IMG/VR virus record: IMGVR_UViG_3300044638_001853
Coordinates: 1 to 48,826 of that record
From: a virus
Length of the DNA stretch: 48,826 nucleotides
Direction: 5' to 3' (one strand)
Made by a program: the position numbers and the translations under genes. Under the pieces are notes generated by a model, which was given only the letters and a program-made list of their open reading frames with translations, was not told the DNA's origin and searched no databases. Below are positions 1,124-27,108 of the stretch, piece after piece. How positions within the stretch are numbered: the first letter of the stretch is position 1; every line of letters begins with the position of its first letter.

Positions 1124-1615
1124 CGAGGTAGCGGTCGCCGCTCCCAGAGTCGGAGTGACCAGCGTTGGGCTGCTGGCGAACACCAGAGCACCCGTGCCGG
1201 TCTCGTCCGTAACTGCCGCCGCCAGATTAGCCGATGAAGGCGTACCAAGGAACGTTGCAACACCAGACCCCAAACTTGTAATCCCCGTGCCGCCATTGGC
1301 AACCGCCAAGGTGCCAGCCAAGGTAACTGTGCCAGAGGACGTAATTGGTCCACCGCTGGTAGTCAGGCCAGTCGTACCACCGGAAACGTCCACGCTTGTA
1401 ACCGTTCCCGCCCCATTGGTTGTCCACTCAACATCTGTAGCTCCCGCATTAACGGTAAGCACCTTGCCCACATTACCCGTGTAATCGGGCAATAGGTTGT
1501 CTCGCGCCCCAGCCGCGCTAGTCGCGCCCGTGCCGCCGTTGACAATTTGCAACGTGCCCGTAATCGCATTAAGCGAGTCAGGCGTGTCCAGCAGCAGAGT
1601 TTTGAAGACGTCCAT
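1..1615 (-). CDS. Tail fibre protein, 3' end cut by window edge
   Basis: The gene starts at the ATG complementary to 1613-1615 and stays open to base 1, so the C-terminus is missing. The N-terminus MDVFKTLLLDTPDSLNAITG is short and has no coiled coil. It is followed by Gly/Thr/Ser-rich fibre repeats: NGGTGATS near residue 26, and DETGTGALVFA twice. Near residue 370 comes GFRNRVINGDMRIDQRNEG followed by GVDRW, a pattern common in receptor-binding ends of phage fibres. Bases 1-1123 match 36423-37545 at about 94% identity without indels. Joining base 1 to 36422 gives an in-frame gene of 721 codons ending at 35875. It is the last of a run of minus-strand head and tail genes. The fibre role is well supported; the receptor is unknown. 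Confidence 0.85.
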   Translation of the reverse strand, partial: MDVFKTLLLDTPDSLNAITGTLQIVNGGTGATSAAGARDNLLPDYTGNVGKVLTVNAGATDVEWTTNGAGTVTSVDVSGGTTGLTTSGGPITSSGTVTLAGTLAVANGGTGITSLGSGVATFLGTPSSANLAAAVTDETGTGALVFASSPTLVTPTLGAATATSLTVNDNTTLGSSNSDTVNFNARVASDINPSTDNTYDLGVTGHEWRNLNIDGTANIDSLVADTADIDGGTIDATAIGGSTAAAGAFTTLGSSSTTTLNGTTIPASKTLVVTTDKLSALAATTSAELAGVISDETGTGALVFANSPTLVTPALGTPASGTVTNLTGTASININGTVGATTPSTVAATTLSASGASTFTNSAPSVIGGLGFRNRVINGDMRIDQRNEGASVSVSTGAQPYGVDRWNGQGTAAAGVFSLQRSTSTPPAGFTNFTRITTTTADASPAAGSVYNFRHQIEGNNLQDFQFGAATAKTVTISFWVRSSLTGTFSGAFSNSAFNRGYPFTYAISVANTWEQKSIAIAGDTTGTWLTDSGIGLR

Positions 1616-1616
1616 T

Positions 1617-1943
1617 TTACAGGTAGTTAAGCTCTTGTGCCTCGATTACGGCATCTGTTGATGCCTCACGAATGGCCTTTGCTGTTGTAACCATTTGCCG
1701 CGTCCAATACGCCGAACTTCCAGAAGGCATACGGAAACCAATGCTCGCCGTTGGGTCAGTCACTCCGTCAAAGGTAACACGAACATCCGCCCCACCAATC
1801 TGAACAAGAACATGGGTTGTGCCGCTATTTAGCGACCAATTAAGTACGTTCTCCGCAGCAGCTCCAATTGTGTTTTGCCTGTGAATGGTACCGTTCTGGG
1901 CAATCGCCTGAGACGGTGTATTTACGATGCGTGCGTTAGCCAT
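1617..1943 (-). CDS. Small putative virion protein, paralogue of the gene at 1949-2263
   Basis: This 108-residue protein has no family I recognise. Its second half (GGADVRVTFDGVTDPTASIG, then SSAYWTRQ and AKAIREASTDA) aligns with the neighbouring upstream protein, which has QGADIMVTFDGSTPTSTNG, NDFWSARR and AKMIRAASTDA. The two genes are therefore a tandem duplication. It lies five bases after that paralogue and one base before the tail fibre start. A structural or fibre-attachment role fits the position but is inferred from context only. Confidence 0.75.
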   Translation of the reverse strand: MANARIVNTPSQAIAQNGTIHRQNTIGAAAENVLNWSLNSGTTHVLVQIGGADVRVTFDGVTDPTASIGFRMPSGSSAYWTRQMVTTAKAIREASTDAVIEAQELNYL

Positions 1944-1948
1944 GATCT

Positions 1949-2263
1949 TTAGACGGTAAAGGGTGAAGCCTGAACAGCAGCATCTGTGCTGGCAGCGCGG
2001 ATCATCTTAGCCGCATCAGCCCGACGGGCAGACCAGAAGTCGTTGTAGCCGCTCTTGAGCATGTGCCCATTAGTGGACGTTGGCGTGGAGCCATCAAACG
2101 TAACCATAATGTCGGCACCCTGGACATCAACAAAAACAAACTTGGTGTTCTCGTTGTAGAACGTGGACGCAAAGCTCACGGCAGCAGTTGACACCGTAAG
2201 CCGCTGGTCGGTCTCTCCCGGCGTTGGGACTGGGTAAAGATTAACTGAAAATGTGTTAGCCAT
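1949..2263 (-). CDS. Small putative virion protein, paralogue of the gene at 1617-1943
   Basis: This 104-residue protein is predicted to be mainly beta-strand, with the shared core VDVQGADIMVTFDG and the C-terminal motif AAKMIRAASTDA. The divergent N-terminus (MANTFSVNLYPVPTPGETDQ) compared with its paralogue suggests the two copies have specialised. It sits three bases downstream of a putative head-tail adaptor gene in the late operon. No function is recognised; decoration, tail or fibre-base roles are all possible. Confidence 0.75.
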   Translation of the reverse strand: MANTFSVNLYPVPTPGETDQRLTVSTAAVSFASTFYNENTKFVFVDVQGADIMVTFDGSTPTSTNGHMLKSGYNDFWSARRADAAKMIRAASTDAAVQASPFTV

Positions 2264-2266
2264 AAA

Positions 2267-3124
2267 TTAACGTGATTGACGTGAGATGTATGTTGAAATG
2301 CGCCGGTAAAGCGAGTTGTTGTTCCTCTGTGTCTCTGCCTTTTCCAATTCTATCATTAGGTATTGCTGGGCAACCTGCTCCTCCGCCATAGCCTTTTCAA
2401 TCTGTCCATCCATCCGCAGGAAGTCGGCGTAAGCCGCATGCGCCACATACTGGAAATACTCGTCTGGGATGTCCGTGGAGTTTACCGTAAATGGCACGCC
2501 AGAAGCCTTAATAAACCCAACCCAGAAGCCGTCAAGGCTACTGTAATTGTTAATGACGTGCGCCCCATCGAAGTCCACATAGAACTCGTACTCGTTCGCG
2601 GAAACGATGTTTAGGGGATTGTTTGCCCAAATGCGGTTAAAGGACTCAATATCCGGGATGGCCACCGCAATAACCGTACCGCTGCCTGTGTACGTCTCGC
2701 TGCCTGTCCCCGTAGTCAGCTCGTATGTAAACGTGTCATTGGCCACCGTTGTCGTGTCAACGCCCGTAACCTGAAACGTACCATTAGGCGTAACCGTTCC
2801 AGACAACCCAGCAACCGTAACATACATCCCATCAACGAAGTCCACCGCAGTAGAGCACACAGCCGTAACCGTTGTGCCGCTCCGTAACGCTGATGTAATC
2901 GACTTGCTTGACGGGGTAAAGGTTCTAGAAATCACCCCATCGACCGCAGGACGCGCCTGCGCCCCGATGATGTAACGAGGCCACACCTGACTAGACCCGT
3001 AAGCCTGCCGAATACGGCGGTTTACGAAGTTCAGGATGCTGGTCTGCTCGTTGCTCGTAAAGTTTGAAACGCCGCAAAGCGACCTAATCAAACTAAACAG
3101 GTCAGTGTAGGTTCTATTGGTCAC
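2267..3124 (-). CDS. Putative head-tail adaptor / connector protein
   Basis: This 285-residue protein has a helical N-terminus (TYTDLFSLIRSLCGVSNFTS, then ILNFVNRRIRQAYG) followed by a Thr/Val-rich beta insert (about residues 75-150) and a helical C-terminus. The pattern of a short helical start with VNRRIRQAY and WPRYI resembles small adaptor or tail-tube proteins placed after the capsid gene in podovirus-like genomes. Its stop overlaps the start of the upstream gene by four bases (3121-3124), so the two are translationally coupled. Function is inferred from position and shape; I see no diagnostic motif. Confidence 0.5.
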   Translation of the reverse strand: MTNRTYTDLFSLIRSLCGVSNFTSNEQTSILNFVNRRIRQAYGSSQVWPRYIIGAQARPAVDGVISRTFTPSSKSITSALRSGTTVTAVCSTAVDFVDGMYVTVAGLSGTVTPNGTFQVTGVDTTTVANDTFTYELTTGTGSETYTGSGTVIAVAIPDIESFNRIWANNPLNIVSANEYEFYVDFDGAHVINNYSSLDGFWVGFIKASGVPFTVNSTDIPDEYFQYVAHAAYADFLRMDGQIEKAMAEEQVAQQYLMIELEKAETQRNNNSLYRRISTYISRQSR

Positions 3125-3462
3125 AGTTTATTGGGCGAAAGATGGGGAAACTTCTTCTGGAAATACTGCATAAACTCGCGGGAATGGAGTTCCTTGTGGC
3201 CGTACTTCTGCTGCATGCGGAAAAACTCCCACTCAGGGATAACGCCAATGCAACGACCCAAACCGGGCAAATCCTTCTTCTGGACACGCTCCCGAGCCTG
3301 TTCCGCAGCCTGTGCCTCCTTAGCCTTCTCCATCTCCTTCTTTAGCTGCATGCCAGTCTTAATCTCACGAATCAAGGCATCATGAATCTGCCCGTCGTGG
3401 TACTTGGGAAACGATGTAATTAACTCCATAAAAAAGGGGCCACCCGTATAGGTGGCCCCCAT
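3121..3462 (-). CDS. Hypothetical charged helical late protein
   Basis: The protein is about 102-113 residues and strongly charged, with a likely coiled coil (LKKEMEKAKEAQAAEQARER) and a conserved-looking end (WEFFRMQQKYGHKELHSREF). Two starts are possible. ATG at 3462 has AGGAG nine bases upstream. ATG at 3429 (MELITSFPKYHDGQ) lies just after a terminator-like hairpin that would otherwise encode the first eleven residues. Neighbouring genes do not use Shine-Dalgarno signals, so the 3429 start is a serious alternative. It is coupled to the adaptor gene by a four-base overlap. No function is recognised. Confidence 0.6.
   Translation of the reverse strand: MGATYTGGPFFMELITSFPKYHDGQIHDALIREIKTGMQLKKEMEKAKEAQAAEQARERVQKKDLPGLGRCIGVIPEWEFFRMQQKYGHKELHSREFMQYFQKKFPHLSPNKL
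3430..3459 (-). terminator. Rho-independent terminator-like hairpin after the capsid genes
   Basis: On the minus strand a perfect 9-bp stem (3451-3459 with 3436-3444) closes a six-base loop and is followed by six T residues (3435-3430). This is the textbook shape of an intrinsic terminator. It lies directly downstream of the capsid and its small partner and overlaps the possible 5' end of the next open reading frame, so it could reduce transcription of the downstream tail genes relative to the capsid. Confidence 0.8.
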
Positions 3463-3482
3463 TATAACAGACTCCTGATTCC

Positions 3483-3935
3483 TTAGACGCGGGAGAAGTC
3501 GATCACCTGAAGGGCGATCACAATCTCACCAGCGGTAATGGAAGCAATCGCCGCATCATTAACCTCAATGACAACATTTGTCGCTGTGGAAACCAGCTTA
3601 ACTGGTAAAACGCCACCCGCGATGGTCGTTGTGCCAGCGGCCTGAACGAACAGATCGCCAGTGTTGGCGACAGGAGCGGTCATGGCGTCAACGTCCAGAG
3701 CATCAATGAACTCGTCCGGGTCGGCCAGCGTTGTGCCAACGTCGATCACAAGAGAAGTCGAGCCAACAATGGCTGTCTTCTCCCAGACTACGCAGGACAG
3801 AACACCGGAACCAGCCGGGAGCTTGAACAGGTTCTTCTGACCACCGTTGCCGATGGCCTGAAGATCCGTGAAGGACAGCTTAGCAACATAGTTGATAAGC
3901 GTACCAGCGGACTCATTAACTGTGAGTTGGGGCAT
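3483..3935 (-). CDS. Putative capsid-associated (decoration-like) protein
   Basis: This 150-residue protein is rich in Val, Ala and Thr and predicted to be all beta (for example SLVIDVGTTLADPDEFIDAL and IASITAGEIVIALQVIDFSR). It is encoded immediately after the major capsid protein, eight bases away, and before a strong terminator-like hairpin. High expression with the capsid and a beta-rich sequence suit a head decoration or stabilising protein. No family-specific motif is recognised, so the role is inference. Confidence 0.55.
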   Translation of the reverse strand: MPQLTVNESAGTLINYVAKLSFTDLQAIGNGGQKNLFKLPAGSGVLSCVVWEKTAIVGSTSLVIDVGTTLADPDEFIDALDVDAMTAPVANTGDLFVQAAGTTTIAGGVLPVKLVSTATNVVIEVNDAAIASITAGEIVIALQVIDFSRV

Positions 3936-3943
3936 TTGATTTA

Positions 3944-4927
3944 TTAGCTGAGGACTGTGATCTTGCCGTGGGCACCGGGATGGTTGACCAGCAGCGTGAG
4001 GGTCGTGTCAACGTAGCCACGCTCGCCACCACCGAGGTTTGGCAGGCGGGTAGAACCGAGGCCGATCAGCTCCGCCACACCGTAGTAGTCGGGGTTGACC
4101 AGATAGCCACTGTCCTTGTTCACCGTGTCTGGAGCGCAGTCAGGGTTCATGTTGACGATGCTGACCATACCATGGTCAGACTCGTACATCTCGACCGCCA
4201 GCTTGATGGTCTTGCTGTCAGCCGACTGCGTGACCTGACGGTACACCGTGTTGGTGCTACCAGAGGTACGCGCATAGTCAGCAATGACCCGGCGGAGAGC
4301 CGTGTCAGCAACAAGCGTCAGGTTGTTGGTCGTGCCAGTCACGCGATAGATCGACGTGATGAGGTCATTGAACGCGCTCTCGGTCAGGGAACCAGAGCTA
4401 TGGATCGAGGCAGCAGGAGTGCGGTAAGCCGCCGGAACGTCCGATGGGCCAGCCGAATCAATCCAGTCGCCAAGGCCACGCAGACCGTAAACGGTGCCAG
4501 CACCGTCTTCAGCCGAGCGGTCATTGGTCGAGCACAGCGTCGCTTCCACGTCACGCTTGATCTCGCGGACAGCCTTGGCCTCAGCCTGGGCAATCTTGGC
4601 GGGACCAACGGACTCCACGGCGTTCTGAAGATCAGAAACCATGAAGTCGCGGCGGAACTTCTGGACGTAATTGCCCAGACGAGCGCGACCGCTGAACTTG
4701 TCGGTAAAGGAGGTGACGTCAGCACCCTCCGCAACGCCGGTCGTAACCGGAGCCGAGAGGCTGTCAACTGTCCACTCAACGAATGTCGCACTCGCCTTGC
4801 TCTTTGGAGCAGACGAAAGGACGGGTGTTTCCTCGGGGGCGAGGATTGTCAGGATGTCCGTGAGGTCTTCACGGTTGGAGACACCAGAACCGGGATTGGT
4901 TGTGTCGAATGTATTAGAAAAAGCCAT
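3944..4927 (-). CDS. Major capsid protein, DUF5309/SU10 type
   Basis: This 327-residue protein starts with MAFSNTFDTTNPGSGVSNRE, then DILTILAPEETPVLSSAPKS and FVEWTVDSLSAP. This opening (early Pro-rich segment, EW.TDSL-like strand, then an acidic EGAD stretch) is typical of the DUF5309 major capsid family known from SU10-like podoviruses. A central helix-rich region (AKIAQAEAKAVREIKRDVEA) would match the spine helix of the HK97 fold. It lies between the scaffold and a beta-rich small protein, the usual order. The size is normal for the family. It would form the icosahedral shell of Part A. Confidence 0.85.
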   Translation of the reverse strand: MAFSNTFDTTNPGSGVSNREDLTDILTILAPEETPVLSSAPKSKASATFVEWTVDSLSAPVTTGVAEGADVTSFTDKFSGRARLGNYVQKFRRDFMVSDLQNAVESVGPAKIAQAEAKAVREIKRDVEATLCSTNDRSAEDGAGTVYGLRGLGDWIDSAGPSDVPAAYRTPAASIHSSGSLTESAFNDLITSIYRVTGTTNNLTLVADTALRRVIADYARTSGSTNTVYRQVTQSADSKTIKLAVEMYESDHGMVSIVNMNPDCAPDTVNKDSGYLVNPDYYGVAELIGLGSTRLPNLGGGERGYVDTTLTLLVNHPGAHGKITVLS

Positions 4928-4936
4928 GATGAATAA

Positions 4937-6085
4937 TTATTTACGTTTAGAATGCTGTAGGGCGCGGAGAGCAATGAAGTCCGTCGTAGCACCAGATGAG
5001 CTAAACCGTTGCTGAATGTCTTTCACGGCCTTGACGACTCGTGTCTCAGGCTGCTCGCTCTGGGCTGAGCTGCTTGCCTGCATCGAAGGAGGACTAAGAC
5101 GCGCAGACGGCTTTGACTCGACGATAGGCCTACGCCCGTAAATCGAGTTTGCTGCGTGGGCCACCATGTATTCCATGTATGGCTCCAAATCGGGAACAGA
5201 CTTCATTGCCTGCTTAAGAAGAGGACTCTCCTTCAGGATTTCGTACTGTTTCCGCACATCGTTGTCATCGCCCTGCATCCAGTTAAGCTCTGTCTTAATC
5301 GCTTCCGTAAACTGCTGCTTAACAGCAACGCGATTCTGACGGGCATTAACCTCTGCAAGTTGAGCCGGGAGAAAGTCCTTGCGAGCCTTTTGGGAGTCTC
5401 GCATAACCTTACGCACCTGAGCCTTGGTGTAGTCCTGACCATTGATTGTGGTTACAATGTCTTCGGCACCGAGGTGCTCGTTGACCCACAGAATATCTTC
5501 TGCCCACTCAATGGCCTCGTCTACTTCTTTGGCTTTAGCTTGAAGTTTCTCCACCGTATCAATGTCGCCAAAAGGATTGTTTTCAATCTTCTTGGTTTCC
5601 AGTGGATCCTTCTGCGTATCCCGCTTAACTAGTTCCTGCTTCAGAGCATTAAGCTGTTCCTCGGCTTGCCTACGTTTTGCGGTAAGCTCACCGTATCGGG
5701 CTACTGCGCGACTGCCCAGCTTTTCAGCTAGTTCGCGCAAATCCTGCTCTGACATGGACTCTAGGTCGATTTCCTTACTTGACTTTGAAAGAACATCCGA
5801 CTCCTCTGCGGGCTGTTGTTCGGACTCGTTAACGCTCTCCGCCTTCGGCGCGTTACTGGTCTCGTTCTTAGGAGCTTCCTGTGAACGATTTTCCTCAACC
5901 TCCTGCTGAGTTACCGGCTGTATAACCTTAGCGTTAATTACCTCGGAGCTAATCTTAGGCTCCCCAATAACTCCCGCCTTGGCCGCTTTGCGCTGGTGTG
6001 CGTACATACCGAACGCAAGGTTATCTGACTGTTCCACTGCATTTTTGACACCCGCAGCGTTGGGTGATTGGACTTCATTAGACAT
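4937..6085 (-). CDS. Capsid scaffolding protein
   Basis: This 382-residue, highly charged protein lacks a clear globular core in its first 150 residues (Glu, Asn, Ser and Pro rich). It then has a long coiled coil (LRELAEKLGSRAVARYGELT, continuing through KRRQAEEQLNALKQEL), and ends in a short basic tail (RALQHSKRK). A basic C-terminal end that docks onto the capsid shell is typical of scaffolding proteins. Its place just upstream of the capsid gene, nine bases away, supports this. No protease motif is visible. Confidence 0.7.
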   Translation of the reverse strand: MSNEVQSPNAAGVKNAVEQSDNLAFGMYAHQRKAAKAGVIGEPKISSEVINAKVIQPVTQQEVEENRSQEAPKNETSNAPKAESVNESEQQPAEESDVLSKSSKEIDLESMSEQDLRELAEKLGSRAVARYGELTAKRRQAEEQLNALKQELVKRDTQKDPLETKKIENNPFGDIDTVEKLQAKAKEVDEAIEWAEDILWVNEHLGAEDIVTTINGQDYTKAQVRKVMRDSQKARKDFLPAQLAEVNARQNRVAVKQQFTEAIKTELNWMQGDDNDVRKQYEILKESPLLKQAMKSVPDLEPYMEYMVAHAANSIYGRRPIVESKPSARLSPPSMQASSSAQSEQPETRVVKAVKDIQQRFSSSGATTDFIALRALQHSKRK

Positions 6086-6161
6086 AGTTCGCGCTCTCTA
6101 TTCGCCGGAGCGGTTGCGATGGGACATTATAACGCACCTTTTTGGTGCATTAAAAAATAGC

Positions 6162-6383
6162 CTATTGCATGCTCTGACGCTTCCTGAACAGGACGTCTTC
6201 CGCTTTGCACATCTTCAGGATTTGGTCGTATACCAATATCTGGCCTGAAATTTGTTGCATCTTTTCAGTTGGAGCATCGAACAGAGCGGATATGCAGGCT
6301 TCACGCTCTTCGTTAATTGATTGCAAAAAGTCCGCAAACTGCGAAACGTGAGACAAATAATCCAACGATTTTTCTAGTGACAT
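6162..6383 (-). CDS. Hypothetical small helical protein between portal and scaffold
   Basis: This 73-residue protein is predicted to be helical almost throughout (SLEKSLDYLSHVSQFADFLQ and QQISGQILVYDQILKMCKAE). It begins six bases after the portal stop codon. No domain is recognised. Its position suggests a head assembly accessory. The following 76 bases (6086-6161) up to the scaffold start are non-coding; I see no strong hairpin there. Confidence 0.6.
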   Translation of the reverse strand: MSLEKSLDYLSHVSQFADFLQSINEEREACISALFDAPTEKMQQISGQILVYDQILKMCKAEDVLFRKRQSMQ

Positions 6384-6389
6384 AATTTA

Positions 6390-8480
6390 CTACTGAGGCA
6401 TTGCCTGTGTGTTCACATTGCCCATAGCCGCTGGCTGGGTTCCAATGCGACCAATCTGGGCGTTCTGGGACTGCTGCATCTGGAACGTGTACTGCGCGGC
6501 GTACTTCTCGATACGGCCACGGAAGGACTCGTCCTGCTGCAAACGCTGTGCAACATCAGGCTGCTGGGCGTACTGCTGGAGGATTTGCAGTGCAATTTGC
6601 GCCCCGTTAGGACGGGCAGGCATTTCAATGCCAGCAAAGATCTTGGTAAGGTCATCCGTAACGCTCTTAACCACCTGCTGCTGCGCCTGCTCCACCGGCT
6701 GAAGAATCGAATCAGCAGCAATTGGATCAATGGCGTTAGCGGACATTTCGATCAGGGTGTCTGGGTTGATGCGCCCATTGCGATCAAGCTGCATTAGGCT
6801 TACAAGCTGGTTCAGCTTGGACTCCTGCGTTTCTGGATCGGAGTTCAGAACGTCGTAAGCAATAACGATGTCGAAGTTCTCGTCAGGGTTGCCCTTGTCG
6901 AATCGCATTGGATCGGGCACGCCGGTAACGCGGAAGAACACCTGATCGGGACCAAACCGCTGGAAGCATTGGAAGGTCATCTTAATCACGTCTTGAACGT
7001 GGCTAAGGAACTTATCCAAAATGAACTGACGCTTAATCCCAGACAAAGGATCATTTGCGCTGAGACCAACCAGCCGGTCAGCCACGTCGATAAGCGTGCG
7101 CTCCATTTCAACGGAGCCGGGATTGTATTGCGGCGTAGGGCCAAACTGGAACTCACCGCCACGGCGGTATGGCACAAAGCGGCCCGGTCCCCAATCGCTG
7201 GGGGCGTTGCCCACAGGGTGCATGATCGGAGGCAGGGTAGCCATCGAGTTGCGGTCAATGCGGCTATCGCGCTCCACCTTAACCTGCCACTGGATGCCGC
7301 GCAGCATGTCGGACATGCTCTGCACATCGTACACGCGCTTGGAAGCCTCGCTAAGACGAGTAACCACCACCGGGTAGTCCTCGTATCCGTTCATTAGCTC
7401 AAACTTGGCATAGGGCTTAACGTCGCCCATCTTGGCCGAAAGCTCCCGGTGGAACACCGTGCAGTAGATGCCCTCAGAATTGTCGATTGGGTCAATCAAA
7501 CGCTGGTAGCCATAGACCACCTCAATCAGTTCGTCCGCCTCGTAAACAACGTCATCCCATAGCAGGGTCTTCCGCGTGTTGTTCTCCTGACCAATGGTGT
7601 CCACGTTAACGCCCTTGTAGTGCTCAATAACGTAGTCCACCCACTCCTCATTCCAACCCTCAGTGGCAACCTTGTTCTTCAGCTCCTGGGCGGTGAAATA
7701 GGTGCGCCAAAAGCAGAACGGGGCACGCTGCGGATCAGCAACGTAGGAGGGGAAAAAGAAGTCGCCATCAGGGGTAAGAGCCTGAACTAGCGGCGCATCC
7801 ACCTGCCGACGGCTTACTGGAATCTCGGCAACACCAGTCTTCCGCAAATCCTTCAACGCCTGTTTTGCCCGCTTGTCGTTTACCGTTGGGTAAACAGACT
7901 TCAGCATCTGGATCATCTGGTCATCAGCCAGACCCTCTACAACCGCAGTAGCAAGTGCAGGGTCAACTTGGGCAAGCTGGTTAAGGTCAAGCCGCTGGAG
8001 GAACGTGCGGTCCTCGCGCTGCCAGCCAACGTAGGTAATGGCAATGCCACGCTCAAGCAGATGGTTGCACGAAGCCTCCATCTCCTTCTTGAAGCGGGGA
8101 ATGTAGCTGCTGACCATCCACTTCAGGAACGAGCTGATAACACGGGCACGGCCCATGTCCCCCATCTCCACGGGGTAAGCACGGATGTTTGCCCGCTGCA
8201 TAGACGACATCAGCAATGCCACATAGCTGTTAATGCGCTCATCAATGACGTGCGCCTCAGAGTCAGACGCGCCCTCCCACGGGAAGGCATCCGAGCCATG
8301 CTTGCGAAGATCCCGAGTCTTACCCGGCCAGATGTTGTTGCGGTCATCGTAGCTCTGGCGGCACTGCTGGAAGTAAGGCTCTAGGTCAGCAAGCGTGTTC
8401 TCGTATGCACGACGCAGAGCGTTTACGTTCGGCTCTTTCTCTACATACGTCAGGGATTTCTCGTCGTTGTCGGGAATCAT
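6390..8480 (-). CDS. Portal protein (Part A)
   Basis: This 696-residue protein has the composition and layout of podovirus portal proteins. Helical N-terminal segments carry NNIWPGKTRDLRKHGSDAFPWEGASDSEAH. A clip/stem region contains FDIVIAYDVLNSDPETQESK. The Gln-rich helical C-terminus (LQILQQYAQQPDVAQRLQQD) would form a barrel inside the head. The motif of aromatic and acidic residues around FPWEGASD is common near the N-terminus of SU10- and P22-like portals. It lies downstream of the large terminase and upstream of the scaffold, as expected. It forms the dodecameric DNA channel. A second, unrelated portal lies at 40744-43491. Confidence 0.85.
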   Translation of the reverse strand: MIPDNDEKSLTYVEKEPNVNALRRAYENTLADLEPYFQQCRQSYDDRNNIWPGKTRDLRKHGSDAFPWEGASDSEAHVIDERINSYVALLMSSMQRANIRAYPVEMGDMGRARVISSFLKWMVSSYIPRFKKEMEASCNHLLERGIAITYVGWQREDRTFLQRLDLNQLAQVDPALATAVVEGLADDQMIQMLKSVYPTVNDKRAKQALKDLRKTGVAEIPVSRRQVDAPLVQALTPDGDFFFPSYVADPQRAPFCFWRTYFTAQELKNKVATEGWNEEWVDYVIEHYKGVNVDTIGQENNTRKTLLWDDVVYEADELIEVVYGYQRLIDPIDNSEGIYCTVFHRELSAKMGDVKPYAKFELMNGYEDYPVVVTRLSEASKRVYDVQSMSDMLRGIQWQVKVERDSRIDRNSMATLPPIMHPVGNAPSDWGPGRFVPYRRGGEFQFGPTPQYNPGSVEMERTLIDVADRLVGLSANDPLSGIKRQFILDKFLSHVQDVIKMTFQCFQRFGPDQVFFRVTGVPDPMRFDKGNPDENFDIVIAYDVLNSDPETQESKLNQLVSLMQLDRNGRINPDTLIEMSANAIDPIAADSILQPVEQAQQQVVKSVTDDLTKIFAGIEMPARPNGAQIALQILQQYAQQPDVAQRLQQDESFRGRIEKYAAQYTFQMQQSQNAQIGRIGTQPAAMGNVNTQAMPQ

Positions 8481-8719
8481 AGGTTTTTAAACTTGTCGAT
8501 AAACTGGCCAACGGCCCTGTGCGTGAAGGTAGGGTGTACCCCAATCTTCTCACAAATGGTACGCGGCTTTAAATTGTCTGGGTTGCCGGTAAGCTCTCTG
8601 TAAAGAATCTCGAAACCCAACAGGCGATCCACATGGGCATCAATCCAGTCATCATCGCACGTCTCATCCCATGAGGGATGCGTGGCGGTAGGTCGTTCCT
8701 GTATTGTCTGTAATGGCAT
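8477..8719 (-). CDS. Hypothetical small protein with helix-turn-helix-like end
   Basis: About 80 residues from the ATG at 8719; a GTG at 8752 would add eleven. The C-terminus (PRTICEKIGVHPTFTHRAVG) has the spacing of a helix-turn-helix, with IGV at the turn. It overlaps the portal start by four bases and the upstream gene by 56 bases from the ATG. Location between large terminase and portal could mean a packaging accessory, but no function can be assigned. Confidence 0.5.
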   Translation of the reverse strand: MPLQTIQERPTATHPSWDETCDDDWIDAHVDRLLGFEILYRELTGNPDNLKPRTICEKIGVHPTFTHRAVGQFIDKFKNL

Positions 8720-9041
8720 GAACCGGGAATTTCTTGTTCTTGAGTTTACCACGCAGCTTTGGTGGAATTAGAATGGCACGTTTACCACCAACGCCTTGTA
8801 TGTTTCCATAAATCCAGCGCGGGTTCGGAGCATCGTGAACGTAGTCCGCTTGCAGGACATCTGGAGAAAACTCCGGGATGTCCATAGCCAGCCTAATTTT
8901 TAAAACAGCACTTTCGGTGAACCATGTGTTCTTCCCGTGTCCCGTGTAGTCGTCAGGCGTAAGTTTCTTTGCCTTGAGCAGCATGAGATCGTTGACGTTA
9001 ACCCCAAGCTCCTCCGCTAGTTCTGTAATTTTAACTTTCAT
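8664..9041 (-). CDS. Hypothetical protein with IF2-N-like N-terminal helix pair
   Basis: This 125-residue protein starts with MKVKITELAEELGVNVNDLM, which resembles the small helical IF2-N domain and related nucleic-acid-binding helix-turn-helix folds. The second half is basic (KRAILIPPKLRGKLKNKKFP) and beta-rich. It shares one base with the large terminase stop (9041) and is part of the packaging cluster. A DNA- or RNA-binding role is plausible; no specific function is known to me. Confidence 0.55.
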   Translation of the reverse strand: MKVKITELAEELGVNVNDLMLLKAKKLTPDDYTGHGKNTWFTESAVLKIRLAMDIPEFSPDVLQADYVHDAPNPRWIYGNIQGVGGKRAILIPPKLRGKLKNKKFPVHAITDNTGTTYRHASLMG

Positions 9042-10645
9042 TAGTAACCTCGTTTTTTCCCTGTTGTCTTCATGCCCGTTGGGTCAATGTAAACGCAAGG
9101 AGTTGTTGCCGCGTATCTTAAACAATCAATAGGATCTTTCCACGCTTCCTCTGGACCTGCTGCGCCCGTGTACTCCTTCAGCGAAGCAATCGTGTTTACA
9201 CAACGATCAGAAATGTAGAAGTGCGGATGGTTCGCTGAATCAACCGGAACCTTTGCGTTGTATGCCATCTTCGTCTGTATTGCCTGAATGCCGTCCTCAA
9301 TCTCAAGCCCCGGCGCAGGGACAAACAGCAGACCAGCATCCTCCAGCTCCTCGATAATGCTGCTGGCTCCAGTGAGCCCTGGGCGTTTAGCGGCACCGGC
9401 TCTCGGGTCAATCAGTCTCTCAAAGATTTGCTCGTTCTCCTCAGACCGCGTAATAAGGTCAACGTAGTCCCTGATACCATAGCCAAGCCCCTTAGCCCCA
9501 TCGCCATAGGACCACTTGCGTCCAGCCCACGTCGCCCAGTCTCCCACGTTGACATCCGGCCACTCACGGTAAACCCAGAACGTCCCATCCTCATCCACGG
9601 CTATCCATAGCATGAACCAGTTCTTGGAACCGGCAGGATCGAGAATTAGGTACCGCGTCACTCCCTTTCTGGGGATTAGATCATGGCTGACCACATTGAT
9701 GCTGGGGTTAAACAACGGGAACTTTGTGGCCATGCTCTTAGTCGGGATACCGTACAAACGGCATAGCACCCATTGCTCGTCTCCCTTAGCCAAAGCCTCC
9801 TTGGCCACCCGCTCATACCCCGAGAACGGATTGTCCTTTGTGTGCAGGTAAATGATGGCTGCGTCCTGCTTGGCACACCGCTGCACATACGGAACCATCT
9901 TGTTGTTCAGAAGCTCCGCTGGCTTCTCCTCAATGGTCTTAGCCCCCTCAAGGTACTGCCGCACCGTTTCCGTGTACCCATCAATCGGCGTAAAGGTTAG
10001 GAGCATCTTGGCGTTACGGGTAGCCAACCGAAAGGACAGGGTGTTAATCAGGTCGGGGCCACCCAGGTACTCGTCGCACCACGCTCCAAGGTTGGGCACC
10101 GTAGGCGCATAGCATCCAAGCTCCAACCCCTCTAGCACCGTCTGGTTCTGCTGAAACTGGCTGTACGTCTTAAACAGGATGCGGCTACCGTTGGCAAAGA
10201 TGACGCTGTTCCCGGCAAAGCCATTCTGTTTCGTATACGATACATACTCTTCCTGACCAAGCTGCTTACGCTTCAGCTCAACCGGCAGATGGTGGAATAC
10301 AGCCGTCTGCTGAACCAACACCGAAAGCTCAGCGTTCTGGGCAAAGCAAACAATTAAAGACTGCGGGTTGTTCATGCACGCCTTCACCACCATCCACGCC
10401 CCAAGCTGCGTCTTAGCCGCACGGTTGCCACCCAAAGCCAGCACTGTGTCCACCTTGCCCAGCCACTCCTGAACCACATTCCAATTGGGCAGAACAAACC
10501 CATACCTATACGGATCGCCCTCAGAATTGCTGATAGCTTCGTGGTAAACCTTATGCAGCCGGATTAAGTCTTTCGGCTCCATCACAGCCATCTCCTCCAC
10601 CGTAGGAGGCTTCAGGATGGCATGGTTACGCCACTTAAGAGCCAT
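9041..10645 (-). CDS. terL: Terminase large subunit (Part A)
   Basis: This is a 534-residue packaging motor starting at MALKWRNHAILKPPTVEEM. The ATG at 10645 overlaps the small terminase stop by 11 bases; a longer start upstream would only read through that gene. Walker A is LGGNRAAKT at residues 71-79. The Walker B region is LGAWCDEYLG with Asp191-Glu192. The nuclease half begins with the acidic strand YLILDPAGS (Asp336), and later acidic residues lie around RLIDPRAGAAKRPG. ATPase followed by nuclease is the standard order. It would pump Part A DNA through the portal at 6390-8480. The GpA-type terminase at 43771-45558 is unrelated in sequence. Confidence 0.92.
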   Translation of the reverse strand: MALKWRNHAILKPPTVEEMAVMEPKDLIRLHKVYHEAISNSEGDPYRYGFVLPNWNVVQEWLGKVDTVLALGGNRAAKTQLGAWMVVKACMNNPQSLIVCFAQNAELSVLVQQTAVFHHLPVELKRKQLGQEEYVSYTKQNGFAGNSVIFANGSRILFKTYSQFQQNQTVLEGLELGCYAPTVPNLGAWCDEYLGGPDLINTLSFRLATRNAKMLLTFTPIDGYTETVRQYLEGAKTIEEKPAELLNNKMVPYVQRCAKQDAAIIYLHTKDNPFSGYERVAKEALAKGDEQWVLCRLYGIPTKSMATKFPLFNPSINVVSHDLIPRKGVTRYLILDPAGSKNWFMLWIAVDEDGTFWVYREWPDVNVGDWATWAGRKWSYGDGAKGLGYGIRDYVDLITRSEENEQIFERLIDPRAGAAKRPGLTGASSIIEELEDAGLLFVPAPGLEIEDGIQAIQTKMAYNAKVPVDSANHPHFYISDRCVNTIASLKEYTGAAGPEEAWKDPIDCLRYAATTPCVYIDPTGMKTTGKKRGY

Positions 10646-21811: not shown

Positions 21812-23145
21812 CAAACACCGACCTTCCGCACACCCTTGACGGTGAACGCGCCATCCTCTCCTGCATCCTTCTAGATGGTGCCGCCTCCCTGTCCAAAGCA
21901 TTGGATGCCAAGATCGGTGAGGAAGCCTTCTTTGACCCCATCCACCGCAAGGTTTGGCGAGCAATCCTCTGGCTACACAAGAACAACCAAGCCATTGACA
22001 TCACCATCTTAGCTGACGAACTAAACAAAAAGGGAAAGCTGGAGGAGATTGGGGGGATCGAAGGCTTAATGCAGGCAACCAAAGGCGTTGCCACAACCAT
22101 CCAGTTTGACCATTGGCTTGAGCGCGTCCGCGATGCGTACATCAACCGCAAGCTGATCGAGACCTGCGACCGCATGGCCGAGAAGGCCCGCGCCAACTCC
22201 GGCTCCGTAGAGGACTTCGTTCAAGCAACACACGACATCCTCTCTGTTCGCCACGCCACGCAGACCATCCAGACCCTCTCCCAAGCCTCAGACGAGGCTA
22301 TCGTTCGCGCTGAAAGCATCCTAGCCGGGACAGAGAAGCCAGAGGAGCGTGGCCTTAGCTGGCCTTGGGCAGACTGGAACACCCGCTTTGGCCCAGCCAC
22401 CGCTGGGGAACTAGTCATCATTGGGGCACGCCCCGGCATAGGTAAAAGCTCCAGCGCACGCCAATGCTGCCTCTCATGGGCAGAGGGCGGGGAAGTGCTG
22501 CTGTTCAGCCGGGAAATGCCCATTGGCGGGCTTCCGTACCTGTTTGCCCAGCAAATCTCAGGCATCTCATGGAAGGAGTTCCGTGACCGCAAGCTGCACA
22601 AAAGCGACGAAGCGGACTTCATCGAAGCCCTGAAGGCTATCCGCGCCATGAAGCGACTGCACATCTTTGACCGCGACCGCACACTCTCCCAGGTTACGGC
22701 CCGCATCCGTGCATTCTCACAAGTCAAGAAGGTCAAGGCTATAGCCATTGACTACCTTCAGCGATACGATCCACAGCAAGACAAGGGCGAGACCCGAGAC
22801 GTAGCCCTTGGCCGCATGAGCATGGCTTTTAAGGACATGGCTGTTGATCTAGGCGTGCCCGTCCTGCTGCTGGCACAAGTCTCTCGCGGCGTTGAAAGAG
22901 AGGCCAGAGAGCCACGCATAAGCGACCTCCGCGAGTCCGGCAATCTGGAGCAGGATGCCGACCGTATTATCTTCTTGCACGCCCCCGCACAAACCCCTAG
23001 CGGTATGTCCAATGATCCAACTGATCGCTCACTAACCAACCTTTACACAGAAGCCATTCAGGCAAAGGGACGCGGAGAAGGACAGGACCGCGCACCCCTT
23101 AACTTCCACCGTCCGACAACCCGTTTCCTAAGCATCCAATCATGA
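21808..23145 (+). CDS. dnaB: Replicative DNA helicase, DnaB family
   Basis: This 445-residue helicase starts at the ATGA overlap at 21808. Residues 1-150 form the helical N-terminal domain (DGERAILSCILLDGAA and HRKVWRAILWLHKNNQ). Walker A is GARPGIGKS (206-214), with FSREMP after it as the usual motif H1a region. Walker B is AIAIDYLQRY, and the downstream LLLAQVSRGVE and ISDLRESGNLEQDAD are canonical DnaB motifs. It unwinds the phage replication fork as a hexamer. No primase, loader or DNA polymerase is visible in the window, so the phage would recruit those of the host. Confidence 0.95.
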   Translation: MTNTDLPHTLDGERAILSCILLDGAASLSKALDAKIGEEAFFDPIHRKVWRAILWLHKNNQAIDITILADELNKKGKLEEIGGIEGLMQATKGVATTIQFDHWLERVRDAYINRKLIETCDRMAEKARANSGSVEDFVQATHDILSVRHATQTIQTLSQASDEAIVRAESILAGTEKPEERGLSWPWADWNTRFGPATAGELVIIGARPGIGKSSSARQCCLSWAEGGEVLLFSREMPIGGLPYLFAQQISGISWKEFRDRKLHKSDEADFIEALKAIRAMKRLHIFDRDRTLSQVTARIRAFSQVKKVKAIAIDYLQRYDPQQDKGETRDVALGRMSMAFKDMAVDLGVPVLLLAQVSRGVEREAREPRISDLRESGNLEQDADRIIFLHAPAQTPSGMSNDPTDRSLTNLYTEAIQAKGRGEGQDRAPLNFHRPTTRFLSIQS

Positions 23146-23333
23146 CCACCGAAGAACTAGAAGCAGCAGGCTTTGCCCCACTCACAGACCCCTATGAAAT
23201 GCCAAGGGAGGAGGAGGAGCTTGAACGCTGCAAGAAGCAGCTAGAGAACGGCAAGGCTGGCCCCATCCCCTATCGGATGCGCTGGATTGACCATGAGTTC
23301 GTAGAAATTTGGGCTAAACCACGGGTCAAATGA
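23142..23333 (+). CDS. Hypothetical acidic small protein
   Basis: This 63-residue protein (MTTEELEAAGFAPLTDPYEM, then ERCKKQLENGKAGPIPYRMR) overlaps the helicase stop and the next start by four bases each. The acidic N-terminal helix and C-terminal strand (WIDHEFVEIWAK) give no family match. Confidence 0.65.
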   Translation: MTTEELEAAGFAPLTDPYEMPREEEELERCKKQLENGKAGPIPYRMRWIDHEFVEIWAKPRVK

Positions 23334-23533
23334 ACGGTAAAGGCGACTCCCCACGGAACTGCTTTAGCGAAGACTTCCGCTCCAACTATGACCGCATCTT
23401 CCGCAAAGCCAGAAAAGCCCTTCAACGGCGGTCAGTGGACGGCAGCCAGAAAACAGTCGTTCATCATGTCGGCTCTTCGCCGCGCCCAATGGCCGCAGAA
23501 GTACGCCTCGATCAGCAGCGCATACGTGCGTGA
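23330..23533 (+). CDS. Hypothetical small basic protein overlapping the HNH gene
   Basis: This 67-residue open frame starts MNGKGDSPRNCFSEDFRSNY. That N-terminus resembles small phage proteins beginning with MNGKGD-PR. Its last two-thirds overlap the HNH nuclease gene in another frame (from 23388), so only the first 20 to 30 residues may be conserved. It overlaps the upstream stop by four bases, which supports translation. Confidence 0.5.
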   Translation: MNGKGDSPRNCFSEDFRSNYDRIFRKARKALQRRSVDGSQKTVVHHVGSSPRPMAAEVRLDQQRIRA

Positions 23534-23786
23534 CGGGATTAACCCAGCCACCGGCAAACCCTGCAAGCTCCACCGCTGCCCGCTCTGCAAGAAGCTCCAC
23601 CCCAAGGGCATGATGCAAGCCGACCACACAATCCCAGTCATACCCCTGTCAGGCTTCGACTCTTGGGATGGTGTAATCTCTCGGCTCTACTGCGAAAAGG
23701 ATGGCTTCCAACCCATCTGTAAGCCCTGCCACAAGGGCAAGACTCTCCTAGAAAACCAACAACGCAAAGCACTCAAGAAGCCATGA
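23388..23786 (+). CDS. HNH endonuclease
   Basis: This 132-residue protein has a zinc-finger HNH core: HRCPLCKKLHPKGMMQADHT with the first Cys pair and the Asp-His, then LYCEKDGFQPICKPCHKGKT with the second Cys pair and final His. The N-terminal half (GGQWTAARKQSFIMSALRRA) is typical of a stand-alone phage HNH family found near replication genes. It is possibly involved in packaging or genome processing, or a free-standing mobile nuclease. The catalytic residues appear complete. Confidence 0.85.
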   Translation: MTASSAKPEKPFNGGQWTAARKQSFIMSALRRAQWPQKYASISSAYVRDGINPATGKPCKLHRCPLCKKLHPKGMMQADHTIPVIPLSGFDSWDGVISRLYCEKDGFQPICKPCHKGKTLLENQQRKALKKP

Positions 23787-24526
23787 AAAACGCCAAGAGG
23801 TTTGTCATATGTTCCGACATCCACGGGGACGAACAAGACGAGAAAGCAACCGCCAGCTTGCTGGACTTCTGCAAGGACTTTAAGCCCCATATCCGCGTCC
23901 TGAACGGTGATCTTTGGGACTTCCGCAACCTCCGCAAAGGCGCATCTGACGACGAGAAGGCGCATAGCCTAGAGGACGACTGGCAGGCCGGGATGGAGTT
24001 TGCCAGCGCCTATTTCAAGGCTTCGCCCTCGGCCAATTTCTTCCTGCGCGGGAACCATGACGAACGGCTATGGGAGTTTGCTAACTCCGCATCCGGGCTC
24101 CTTCGGGACTACGCCACCGACGGGATTAAGCGCGTAGAACAGGCTGCGCGGGTATGGAAGGCAACGATGCTGCCGTATGACAGTCGCAAGGGCGTTTTGC
24201 AGCTTGGGAAGCTCAGGGTTATTCACGGATACCATGCAGGAGCCGGGGCAGCGCAAGCGCACGCCCGCGTCTATGGCAACTGTGTCTTTGGGCATACGCA
24301 TAGCGTAGAAGTAAACGCCATCGCCAGCCTGGAGCCCGAGGAAGCGCGGGGAATTGGGTGCCTGTGCAAGCAAGACATGGGTTACGTCAACTTTAAGACA
24401 GGGAAGCTCAGGTGGGCGCAGGGTTGGGGATACGGACTGCTCCATGAAGATGGCACTTATCACCTTAACCAAGCCAGAAAGATTAACGGAAAGTTCGTTT
24501 GCTCATCACGTTTTACAGATTACTGA
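23783..24526 (+). CDS. Calcineurin-like metallophosphoesterase
   Basis: This 247-residue protein carries all metal-binding motifs of the family in order: SDIHGD (11-16), NGDLWD (41-46), GNHDE (90-94), HGYH (148-151) and GHTH (170-173). It would hydrolyse phosphomonoesters or phosphodiesters using two metal ions. The substrate is unknown; nucleic acid or cyclic nucleotides are options for phage members. The last 21 residues (HLNQARKINGKFVCSSRFTD plus Tyr) reappear in recoded form at the end of the next gene, an HNH nuclease. Confidence 0.88.
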   Translation: MKNAKRFVICSDIHGDEQDEKATASLLDFCKDFKPHIRVLNGDLWDFRNLRKGASDDEKAHSLEDDWQAGMEFASAYFKASPSANFFLRGNHDERLWEFANSASGLLRDYATDGIKRVEQAARVWKATMLPYDSRKGVLQLGKLRVIHGYHAGAGAAQAHARVYGNCVFGHTHSVEVNAIASLEPEEARGIGCLCKQDMGYVNFKTGKLRWAQGWGYGLLHEDGTYHLNQARKINGKFVCSSRFTDY

Positions 24527-24528
24527 AA

Positions 24529-25074
24529 ATGCTTACAAAGGAATATCTTAACGAGGTTTTGGACTACTGCCCAACAAGCGGTGTTTTTACGTGGAAAAAG
24601 CGAATCAGTCGCAGGGGCGTTGTCGGTAGCGTGGCGGGAGCGCCGGACCCAGTGAAACCGTACTGGCGCATAAAGATTGCCGGAAAGCAGTACATGGCAC
24701 ACCGGCTGGCGTGGCTGTCTGTTTATGGGTCATGGCCGAAAGACCAAATAGACCACATCAACGGGATGAAAGGGGACAATCGAATTTCCAACCTCCGTCA
24801 ATGCACGCCGCTTCAAAATGCAATCAACCGGGCGGGATTGAGCGCCCTTGGTCACAAGGGAGTTTCTCCATCAGGAAGCGGGTTCCGGGCAAGAATCACA
24901 GTTGGAAAGCAAAGGCTTAACTTGGGTTGGTTTGCCACCGCCAAGGATGCGGGCGCTGCGTATCAGGCCAAGAGCCGCCAACTACACGGAGAGTTTGCCA
25001 CAGACAGGCACTTGCAGCAGGCGCGCAAGATTGGGGACACCTTCATCTGCGCCGACAACTTCAAAGCCTACTGA
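24529..25074 (+). CDS. HNH homing endonuclease with AP2 domain and captured tail
   Basis: This 181-residue protein starts at MLTKEYLNEVLDYCPTSGVF, two bases after the phosphoesterase stop. The HNH core is YMAHRLAWLSVYG, DQIDHINGMKGDNRISNLRQ and CTPLQNAINR. The AP2-type DNA-binding domain covers GVSPSGSGFRARITVGKQRL to AAYQAKSRQLHGEFA. The last 21 residues (HLQQARKIGDTFICADNFKA plus Tyr) are not part of such nucleases; they match the tail of the upstream phosphoesterase at about 12 of 21 positions while the codons differ widely. This looks like a mobile endonuclease inserted into the 3' end of that gene. Confidence 0.85.
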   Translation: MLTKEYLNEVLDYCPTSGVFTWKKRISRRGVVGSVAGAPDPVKPYWRIKIAGKQYMAHRLAWLSVYGSWPKDQIDHINGMKGDNRISNLRQCTPLQNAINRAGLSALGHKGVSPSGSGFRARITVGKQRLNLGWFATAKDAGAAYQAKSRQLHGEFATDRHLQQARKIGDTFICADNFKAY

Positions 25075-25076
25075 CC

Positions 25077-25310
25077 ATGAAAAGCTGGGCAACACTACTA
25101 CAGCAGGAGACCCAGAAGCAGGTGCGGGAGCCAGAGGGCAAGGGGTGGCAGACCTTCAATGAAATCCACAAATCCCTTGGGCAAGGCGAAGGCAGGACTC
25201 GCCGCGTGATAAAAGAATCAGCACACTCCGGTAAGTGTGAGGTCTTTAGGGGAACGCAAAAGACTGCGGACGGTCGCTTCAGCATGCAGGTCTGGTATCG
25301 TCTGAAGTGA
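25077..25310 (+). CDS. Hypothetical small protein, winged-helix-like
   Basis: This 77-residue protein (MKSWATLLQQETQKQVREPE, then GWQTFNEIHKSLGQGEGRTR and GRFSMQVWYRLK) has the helix-helix-strand order of a small winged helix. It is the last gene of the early operon. No function is recognised. It is followed by 60 non-coding bases with the inverted repeat GGTTGT/ACAACC before the tRNA. Confidence 0.65.
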   Translation: MKSWATLLQQETQKQVREPEGKGWQTFNEIHKSLGQGEGRTRRVIKESAHSGKCEVFRGTQKTADGRFSMQVWYRLK

Positions 25311-25370
25311 CGAGACAGACAGCATTTGGCTGGTTGTTCGTCAAAGCTGGCGACTAGCCACAACCTTTAC

Positions 25371-25445
25371 GCCCCCATAGTTTAATGGTTAAAACGGAAG
25401 TTTTGTAAACTTCAAATCACGGTTCGATTCCGTGTGGGGGCTCCA
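25371..25445 (+). tRNA. tRNA-Thr (anticodon TGT), CCA encoded
   Basis: The acceptor stem GCCCCCA (25371-25377) pairs with TGGGGGC (25435-25441), followed by discriminator T and encoded CCA. The anticodon arm is GAAGT-TTTGTAA-ACTTC, giving anticodon TGT, which reads ACA (Thr). The T arm is CACGG-TTCGATT-CCGTG. G1-C72 and C2-G71 are the usual Thr identity pairs. It sits between the converging early and late arms, two bases from the stop of the last late gene. Confidence 0.93.
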
Positions 25446-25446
25446 G

Positions 25447-27108
25447 TTACTGTCGCTGATCGCTAGGAGGCGCATTGCGTCCCGCCGTAGATGCAGAAAG
25501 ACGCATAAGCTCGTCCGCAAACGTCGGGACTACCTGTGTCCTAAATGGTTTGTATGGTGAAGGCAGCGCGTTCTCCAACTGATACTCGGGACTAAGAATC
25601 ATATTCCTGAGAGATCCAGTCATGGGTGAGGCGGCAACAGAAACTGCACCGCTGCGAACTCCCGCGCCTTGTAATCCCATTGGACGCGCCTTGCTTGCGC
25701 CCTTGGCATAGTTGTCTGCTGTATTGGCAAACTTCGCAATCTTGGCCGCATTGCCATCAAGAGGCACTCCATTATCCATTTGCGAGGCAAGATTCCTCAT
25801 GTCAATTTCACCGCGTTGAGCATTGAGGGCGGAGTCATACGCGTACATTTTGGCCAAATACTTACGCGCCGCTTTGAGTCGTGTTACCAAATCCTTCTGA
25901 CCAGACTTTTCCGCAAGACTCTCAAGAGTATTTTCAAGAGAATCGACTTCATCCTTAACAGCTCTAGCCCGTTCAAGGTACTCGGTTCTTTTGCCAGAAT
26001 CGCCATTTGCTAATCCGTAAAGATTCTTAATGCTCTCGCGTTTTTTCTTGATTTCAGAAACAAGCTCTTCCCCGCCCATGAGCTGGCTTTCGGGAATTAA
26101 AGCTCTTATTTCAGGTTCAAGAAGCGATGCGGGACCCCTTTTGCTCGGAAGAAATTTTGTCGCATCCTCGTATGGGGCATATGCCAATTCGATCTGGGAC
26201 GATAGAAAATTGCTATTTAGCTCAGGACTTGGACGGGGCATCCCGTCTTTAACTAGATCGCTATCATATTTGGGATTGATCCCCTTTGGAATAACAATTT
26301 CCTCACCCACCAGCCTGTTGGCATTAACCTGATTGTTTATAATCTGCATGTTTGCCAACTCATCCCGACCAGCCAACATCTCAAGCGCAGAATTCTTAAA
26401 TTTGCGCTGCTCAACAGATGGAATAAAAACAAATCCATCATTGATGGAGTTGGTCATGCTATCAACGAGCTGCTTTCTGTTGGTTATATTGATTCCAGCC
26501 TGAGCCGCCGCAAGCTCTGCACTGGTGCGGTTCATGGACCTAATCGCCATAGGAAGCTCTCCTGCAGAACCGCCCGCAGCGGCAATTGTAAGACCTTCCA
26601 CTGTGATGTCTCGACCAGCAATCAACGCTTGGGCCGCATCGGCGGCAGTGTTCATCCCAGCCCCGGCAATCAATCGCTTTAAACCAGCCTGAATGAAGCC
26701 GGGGAGGGAAACGGCACCGCCGGGAAAGGCACCAAGGGCTTCACGAACATTGAAGGACTCCTGTTGTCCTTGAGACATGCGCCGAAGCTGTGCTGCGCTC
26801 TGGCCAGCCATCGCCCCAACTCCACCACCAATAAACGCTCCGGGCGGTCCCGCAAGAGATCCGACAAGTTTCCCGACGCCTGCGCCGCCAGCCTCAAGGC
26901 CAACATCGGCAGCAAACTGACCAACCTCACGAATGCTCGGAGACTGAACATTGGACAGGTTTGGCATGAAGCCAGACGCCGCCATTGGTGCCTGACCACG
27001 GGGTGCAGCGGCCTGTGGGATTGGCTCAGGCTGTGGTGCGCCCGCTTTACGCTTTCTCAGCTCAAGCTCAAGTTCAAGGCGGCGGCGTCTTTCTTCGTTG
27101 GTAGCCAT
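25447..27108 (-). CDS. Putative internal virion / DNA-ejection protein C
   Basis: This 553-residue protein starts in a charged coil (ERRRRLELELELRKRKAGAP) and has a Gly/Ala-rich, glycine-zipper-like segment (about residues 75-110: GGAGVGKLVGSLAGPPGAFI and GGGVGAMAG), followed by a long, mostly helical region with coiled coil (EYLERARAVKDEVDSLENTL). A membrane-active hydrophobic segment in a large helical late protein next to two similar genes fits the ejection proteins of podoviruses. No lytic motif is visible. It overlaps the upstream gene by one base. It is the last gene of the late operon. Confidence 0.5.
   Translation of the reverse strand: MATNEERRRRLELELELRKRKAGAPQPEPIPQAAAPRGQAPMAASGFMPNLSNVQSPSIREVGQFAADVGLEAGGAGVGKLVGSLAGPPGAFIGGGVGAMAGQSAAQLRRMSQGQQESFNVREALGAFPGGAVSLPGFIQAGLKRLIAGAGMNTAADAAQALIAGRDITVEGLTIAAAGGSAGELPMAIRSMNRTSAELAAAQAGINITNRKQLVDSMTNSINDGFVFIPSVEQRKFKNSALEMLAGRDELANMQIINNQVNANRLVGEEIVIPKGINPKYDSDLVKDGMPRPSPELNSNFLSSQIELAYAPYEDATKFLPSKRGPASLLEPEIRALIPESQLMGGEELVSEIKKKRESIKNLYGLANGDSGKRTEYLERARAVKDEVDSLENTLESLAEKSGQKDLVTRLKAARKYLAKMYAYDSALNAQRGEIDMRNLASQMDNGVPLDGNAAKIAKFANTADNYAKGASKARPMGLQGAGVRSGAVSVAASPMTGSLRNMILSPEYQLENALPSPYKPFRTQVVPTFADELMRLSASTAGRNAPPSDQRQ

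Follow-up and report, generated by a model that had tools for sequence, protein, structure and literature searches.

In the 48,826-base stretch of viral DNA analyzed here (the window), a gene for a free-standing HNH endonuclease lies directly 3′ of a metallophosphoesterase (MPE) gene, and the two genes end in similar tails of 21 codons. Comparison with relatives that lack the nuclease at this site indicates that the nuclease bears the native 3′ end of the MPE gene, in its ancestral position, and that the MPE gene of the window ends in another allele. We consider it likely that a free-standing HNH homing nuclease gene entered near the MPE 3′ end, and that homing from a diverged donor brought in the 3′ part of the donor MPE together with the nuclease, to which the native tail then stayed joined in frame.

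Gene Layout and Identity of the Nuclease

The features of the locus are listed in Table 1. The interval 24461–25074 extends from the first codon of the MPE tail to the HNH stop codon. The MPE residues that are invariant in the family alignment (D12, H14, G42, D43, N91, H92, H148, H171 and H173) are intact, and because of these intact motifs the function of the MPE is probably retained.

Table 1. Features of the MPE locus in the window; L016 is the closest uninterrupted relative.
Feature	Position	Strand	Evidence or comparison
Window	48,826 bases		IMG/VR virus record IMGVR_UViG_3300044638_001853
HNH-like gene upstream of MPE, intact in window	23388..23786	+	phrog_3106 E=4e-15
Metallophosphoesterase (MPE), target gene, 247 aa	23783..24526	+	Pfam Metallophos E=5e-7; phrog_221 E=3e-15
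MPE codons 126–226, body left of insertion	24158..24460	+	third positions vs L016 44/101
Substitute MPE tail, 21 codons + stop	24461..24526	+	52% aa, 57% nt identity to L016 tail
Free-standing HNH endonuclease, 181 aa, phrog_99	24529..25074	+	HNH_3 E=8e-16; phrog_99 E=3e-58
Displaced native MPE tail, 21 codons + stop, in frame on nuclease end	25009..25074	+	L016 match E=1e-15
Small gene, 77 aa	25077..25310	+	vs L016, 61/77 aa; 84% nt identity in right flank

The HNH_3 domain of the nuclease corresponds to PF13392, and the phrog_99 match spans residues 1–165. No Pfam match to an AP2 domain was obtained at E ≤ 0.1; several phage homologues, aligned over residues 1–157, are annotated as "AP2 domain protein". 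A search of Rfam over positions 23000–26000 returned tRNA-Thr alone and no intron family around the nuclease, and the MPE has its own stop codon before the HNH start. In line with the initial annotation, a group I or group II intron or an intein is rejected, since Rfam shows no intron RNA in this region and the nuclease does not lie in frame inside one host protein.

Early in the HNH coding sequence, at 24565–24583, there is a terminator-like hairpin followed by TTTTT, but with 6 such sites versus 3.3 ± 2.1 their number is not clearly above chance. Terminators in the 5′ coding part have been reported for T4 mobE and segF (PMC2988022).

The Two Tails of the Window

The MPE of the window ends in HLNQARKINGKFVCSSRFTDY and the HNH protein in HLQQARKIGDTFICADNFKAY, each followed by a stop codon. 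Their likeness, on which the initial annotation was built, was confirmed: 11 of the 21 residues are common, and the local alignment score of 62 compares with a maximum of 38 in 100 shuffles. At the codon level, 6/21 are identical and 15 differ, and 10 of these 15 differences are amino-acid changes. It is therefore correct that most codons of the tail are changed, and calling the tail "recoded" overstates the case, because two thirds of the changed codons (10/15) alter the amino acid.

The tail is foreign to this nuclease family, as had been claimed, since the alignments of relatives mostly end before it. HNH matches in 2776 phage records mostly end near residue 157 of 181, just before the tail, and 138 of 177 sampled related HNH genes in viral contigs terminate no more than 10 residues from the point at residue ~157.

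The Native Tail Resides on the Nuclease

The closest uninterrupted relative of the MPE (73% aa identity) is found in IMGVR_UViG_3300020042_006311 (L016), which has no nuclease at the MPE. Its MPE ends in HLEQARKIGDTFICADNFKSY and a stop codon, and the downstream gene, with a product beginning MKSWATLL, starts 1 nt later. This tail matches the tail of the window nuclease in 19/21 residues and in 90.3% of 62 nt (E=1e-15). The only hits were L016 and L178, a duplicate of the same L016 sequence. The small 77-aa gene that directly follows the MPE in L016 follows the nuclease tail in the window. More generally, the uninterrupted MPE relatives in viral contigs have such a tail and then directly the downstream sequence, without a nuclease.

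Because the L016 tail matches the nuclease tail and the same downstream gene comes next, the tail on the nuclease is identified as the native one. The core of the initial annotation is borne out by this comparison, which it had itself suggested as a check: the relatives' MPE tail adjoins the same downstream gene, with the nuclease-fused version present in the closest of them; the nuclease landed at the MPE 3′ end, where the MPE received a substitute tail; and the original tail remains in frame on the nuclease. Its title, in which the nuclease carries a recoded copy, has the direction wrong, as it is the native copy that sits on the nuclease.

The window and L016 are mosaic siblings. Their DNA identity is 88% over 9 kb (1323–10338) and ~63–90% in other blocks, as seen across the whole L016 contig (L176/L177). 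In the replicative helicase region upstream of 23138, the window has no match to L016.

Origin of the Substitute Tail

We compared third codon positions between the window and L016 on both sides of the nuclease. Identity was 44/101 (44%) in MPE codons 126–226 and 9/21 (43%) in the substitute tail (p=1.0), and it rose to 72/98 (73%) in the displaced tail and downstream gene (p=3e-5). At identical residues, the same codon was used in 37/87 cases left of the nuclease and in 63/80 right of it (p=2e-6). The amino-acid identity of 52% between the tails is ordinary, because across the family MPEs that are 81–92% identical to L016 in codons 201–226 have tails that are ~33–57% identical.

The description of the tail as recoded is therefore not supported: 10/21 residues differ, and divergence from L016 is no higher in the tail than in the adjacent MPE body. 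A special synonymous recoding is rejected on the amino-acid changes together with the body-level divergence. Since the 101 codons next to the tail differ from L016 to the same degree, a donor allele acquired through co-conversion suffices. The substitute tail has the appearance of a natural 3′ end, belonging to a diverged MPE allele that arrived with the nuclease, and not of recoded cargo; MPE codons 126–226 are probably co-converted donor sequence.

The model of the initial annotation can be stated more strictly, with a mobile unit consisting of the nuclease and a pre-assembled substitute tail that is recoded to evade cleavage. This unit would have entered at codon 226/227 of the MPE that the recipient already had, so that the body on the left is the recipient's. 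Such an insertion would give the same final anatomy, and fungal mitochondrial mORFs bear inserted C-termini of this kind (PMC3630166). However, body and tail of the MPE show equal divergence from L016, unlike the right flank, and with half of its residues different the tail is not a synonymous rewrite. We therefore regard this model as unlikely.

Further to the left, in MPE codons 76–125 (24008–24157), identity between the window and L016 is 45%, and the window reaches up to 67% aa identity with other MPEs; by this comparison, the odd allele in these codons belongs to L016 and not to the window. A donor of the substitute tail or of the MPE allele was not found in the viral contigs. The genome contigs yielded only four MPE relatives, all distant, and the phage records yielded none.

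Proposed Mechanism

In the homing account, the donor would have been another phage infecting the same cell, equipped with the nuclease and a diverged MPE. The nuclease would have cut the recipient MPE near codons 226–227, and double-strand-break repair would have copied the donor MPE 3′ part and the nuclease in an asymmetric co-conversion reaching at least ~300–370 bp leftwards. With the right junction at the nuclease 3′ end, the nuclease stop codon would have been lost and the recipient tail retained. As with the WHO elements of yeasts, the new MPE 3′ end would both replace the old one functionally and be resistant to the nuclease. Phage homing nucleases are documented to cause asymmetric co-conversion (PMC2988022), and 3′-end replacement with asymmetric conversion tracts is documented for WHO elements (PMC7282813).

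The putative self-immunity requires a target that either straddles codons 226/227 or lies in the diverged body. This limit exists because the native tail itself persists in the genome, and a target wholly within the 63-nt tail would remain. It counts against the homing account that no donor phage with the MPE allele of the window turned up, that the genomes are mosaic, so that the divergence step could have other causes (in codons 76–125 the unusual allele is that of L016), and that only one clear 3′ case was found.

A Partial Counterpart in L016

L016 has a phrog_99 nuclease of its own (L016:1565-2218), which occupies the 5′ end of the phrog_3106 gene that precedes the MPE (region L016:1565-2504). 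This nuclease starts with MTKSSAKVKPPK, and the intact phrog_3106 gene of the window starts with MTASSAKPEKPF. The host gene in L016 restarts at MKKKSLRILANRPHNGG, overlapping the nuclease 3′ end, and the nuclease runs out of frame into the host gene. Here too, a divergence step was found relative to the window, with 49/63 before the nuclease and 14/47 after it (p=7e-7). A captured host-gene end lies on the conserved side of the L016 nuclease and a diverged host-gene body on the other side. The case is not an exact mirror of the window, since nuclease sequence encodes part of the new N-terminus.

This second locus bears on the possibility that homing played no part and that the arrangement arose by mosaic recombination. 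One lineage would then have supplied the MPE, its own tail and the nuclease, the displaced tail and downstream gene would be L016-like, and an illegitimate join inside the tail would have left the nuclease as a bystander. Phage genomes are indeed mosaic, and the identity of the window and L016 varies between blocks from ~63% to 90%. However, both nucleases of this pair lie exactly at divergence steps, and phage nuclease genes have been reported at genetic-exchange boundaries (PMC10448857). Recombination with the nuclease as a bystander is thus quite improbable. An assembly chimera of two related phages is very improbable. The contig is metagenome-derived and the arrangement was found in a single copy, but the sequences that precede the tail in the window nuclease and in the L016 MPE do not visibly match, and an assembler would thus have lacked a common stretch at this point. 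Moreover, the fusion keeps the reading frame up to the native stop codon, and similarity to L016 is back on both outer flanks (84–88%).

Comparison with Known Systems

The homing account has counterparts in fungi. In the WHO elements of Torulaspora and Lachancea, each integration replaces the 3′ end of FBA1 and pushes the previous end downstream, the unit being the nuclease with a resistant 3′ end upstream of it (PMC7282813). The window resembles them in that the nuclease is directly 3′ of the target gene, the displaced target 3′ end comes after the nuclease, no splicing is involved, and the current target 3′ end is a different allele (52% aa identity between the tails). However, the WHO nuclease is a eukaryotic intein-like protein with a zinc finger that targets FBA1, whereas the window has an HNH_3 nuclease beside a phage MPE. 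The displaced FBA1 fragments are ~400 bp long and are not reported to be fused to the nuclease, whereas the displaced end in the window is 66 bp long and fused in frame. The window element is also a single copy and does not form a cluster.

Endonuclease ORFs (mORFs) with inserted C-termini have been described in fungal mitochondria, in atp6, atp9, cox2 and nad3 of Glomus and in atp6 of Allomyces (PMC3630166). In Glomus atp6, the native C-terminus has 91% DNA identity to that of a relative and the inserted one ~64% (PMC3630166). The order is the same as in the window, namely a gene body with a foreign C-terminus, an endonuclease ORF and the native C-terminus, and in both systems it is the native copy that agrees with close relatives, the inserted one being diverged. 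The mORFs differ in encoding LAGLIDADG or GIY-YIG enzymes in mitochondria, whereas the window has an HNH enzyme in a virus record. Their inserted C-termini are mostly synonymous variants (91% aa identity for atp6), unlike the tail of the window at 52%.

Among phages, the free-standing nucleases of T4-like genomes (segF, mobE and mobA; PMC2988022) are likewise intronless, lie beside or inside a functional phage gene and show co-conversion of flanks. However, mobE in Aeh1 nrdA and mobA in T4 gene 60 split the host gene into working pieces, whereas here a new 3′ end keeps the gene whole, and the nuclease bears the severed one. The phrog_99 HNH-AP2-type phage endonucleases belong to the same family as the window nuclease by HMM and BLAST, and the other sampled members do not have the tail of the upstream gene at their C-terminus.

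The window element works like the WHO elements and the mORFs and is a member of neither; what it adds to their layout is that the severed end is fused in frame to the nuclease. No description of the same layout in phages was found in the literature searched (open-licence texts).

Generality and Further Loci

Among 97 distinct MPEs, a second tail downstream of the gene was seen in the window only, and the other MPE loci examined have no nuclease there either. The initial annotation had proposed to look for further HNH genes ending in the tail of the upstream gene. If tandem HNH pairs (L125, L096) are set aside, none turned up in viral contigs among 177 related HNH genes, nor at the 7 tested of 8 annotated phage loci. 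At present there is one clear 3′ example and one partial 5′ counterpart.

Tentatively, homing elements with neither intron nor intein might form a general class in phages. In these, the end of the target would be replaced by a cleavage-resistant allele, and the severed native end, fused in frame to the nuclease, would also provide the right homology arm when the element next homes; 5′ versions, as in L016, would capture the start codon too. We think this possible, though doubtful. The homing account of the window locus would itself extend the 3′-end-replacing homing of yeast WHO elements and fungal mitochondria to phages and to HNH nucleases, and it offers homing nucleases a way to occupy gene ends in which the gene is not destroyed. 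It also predicts that past homing has left footprints in the form of some odd terminal extensions on phage nucleases. L016 offers a natural empty-site allele, so that allele-specificity is directly testable.

In two different viral contigs (L121 and L169), HNH genes follow an upstream frame of 618 residues and have the common C-terminal residues KINDVTP. In Shigella phage Henu12 (L333:1450-3001), an exodeoxyribonuclease gene overlaps the annotated HNH start by ~59 nt. The C-terminus of this exodeoxyribonuclease may be encoded by nuclease-side sequence, which would make it another possible terminal replacement.
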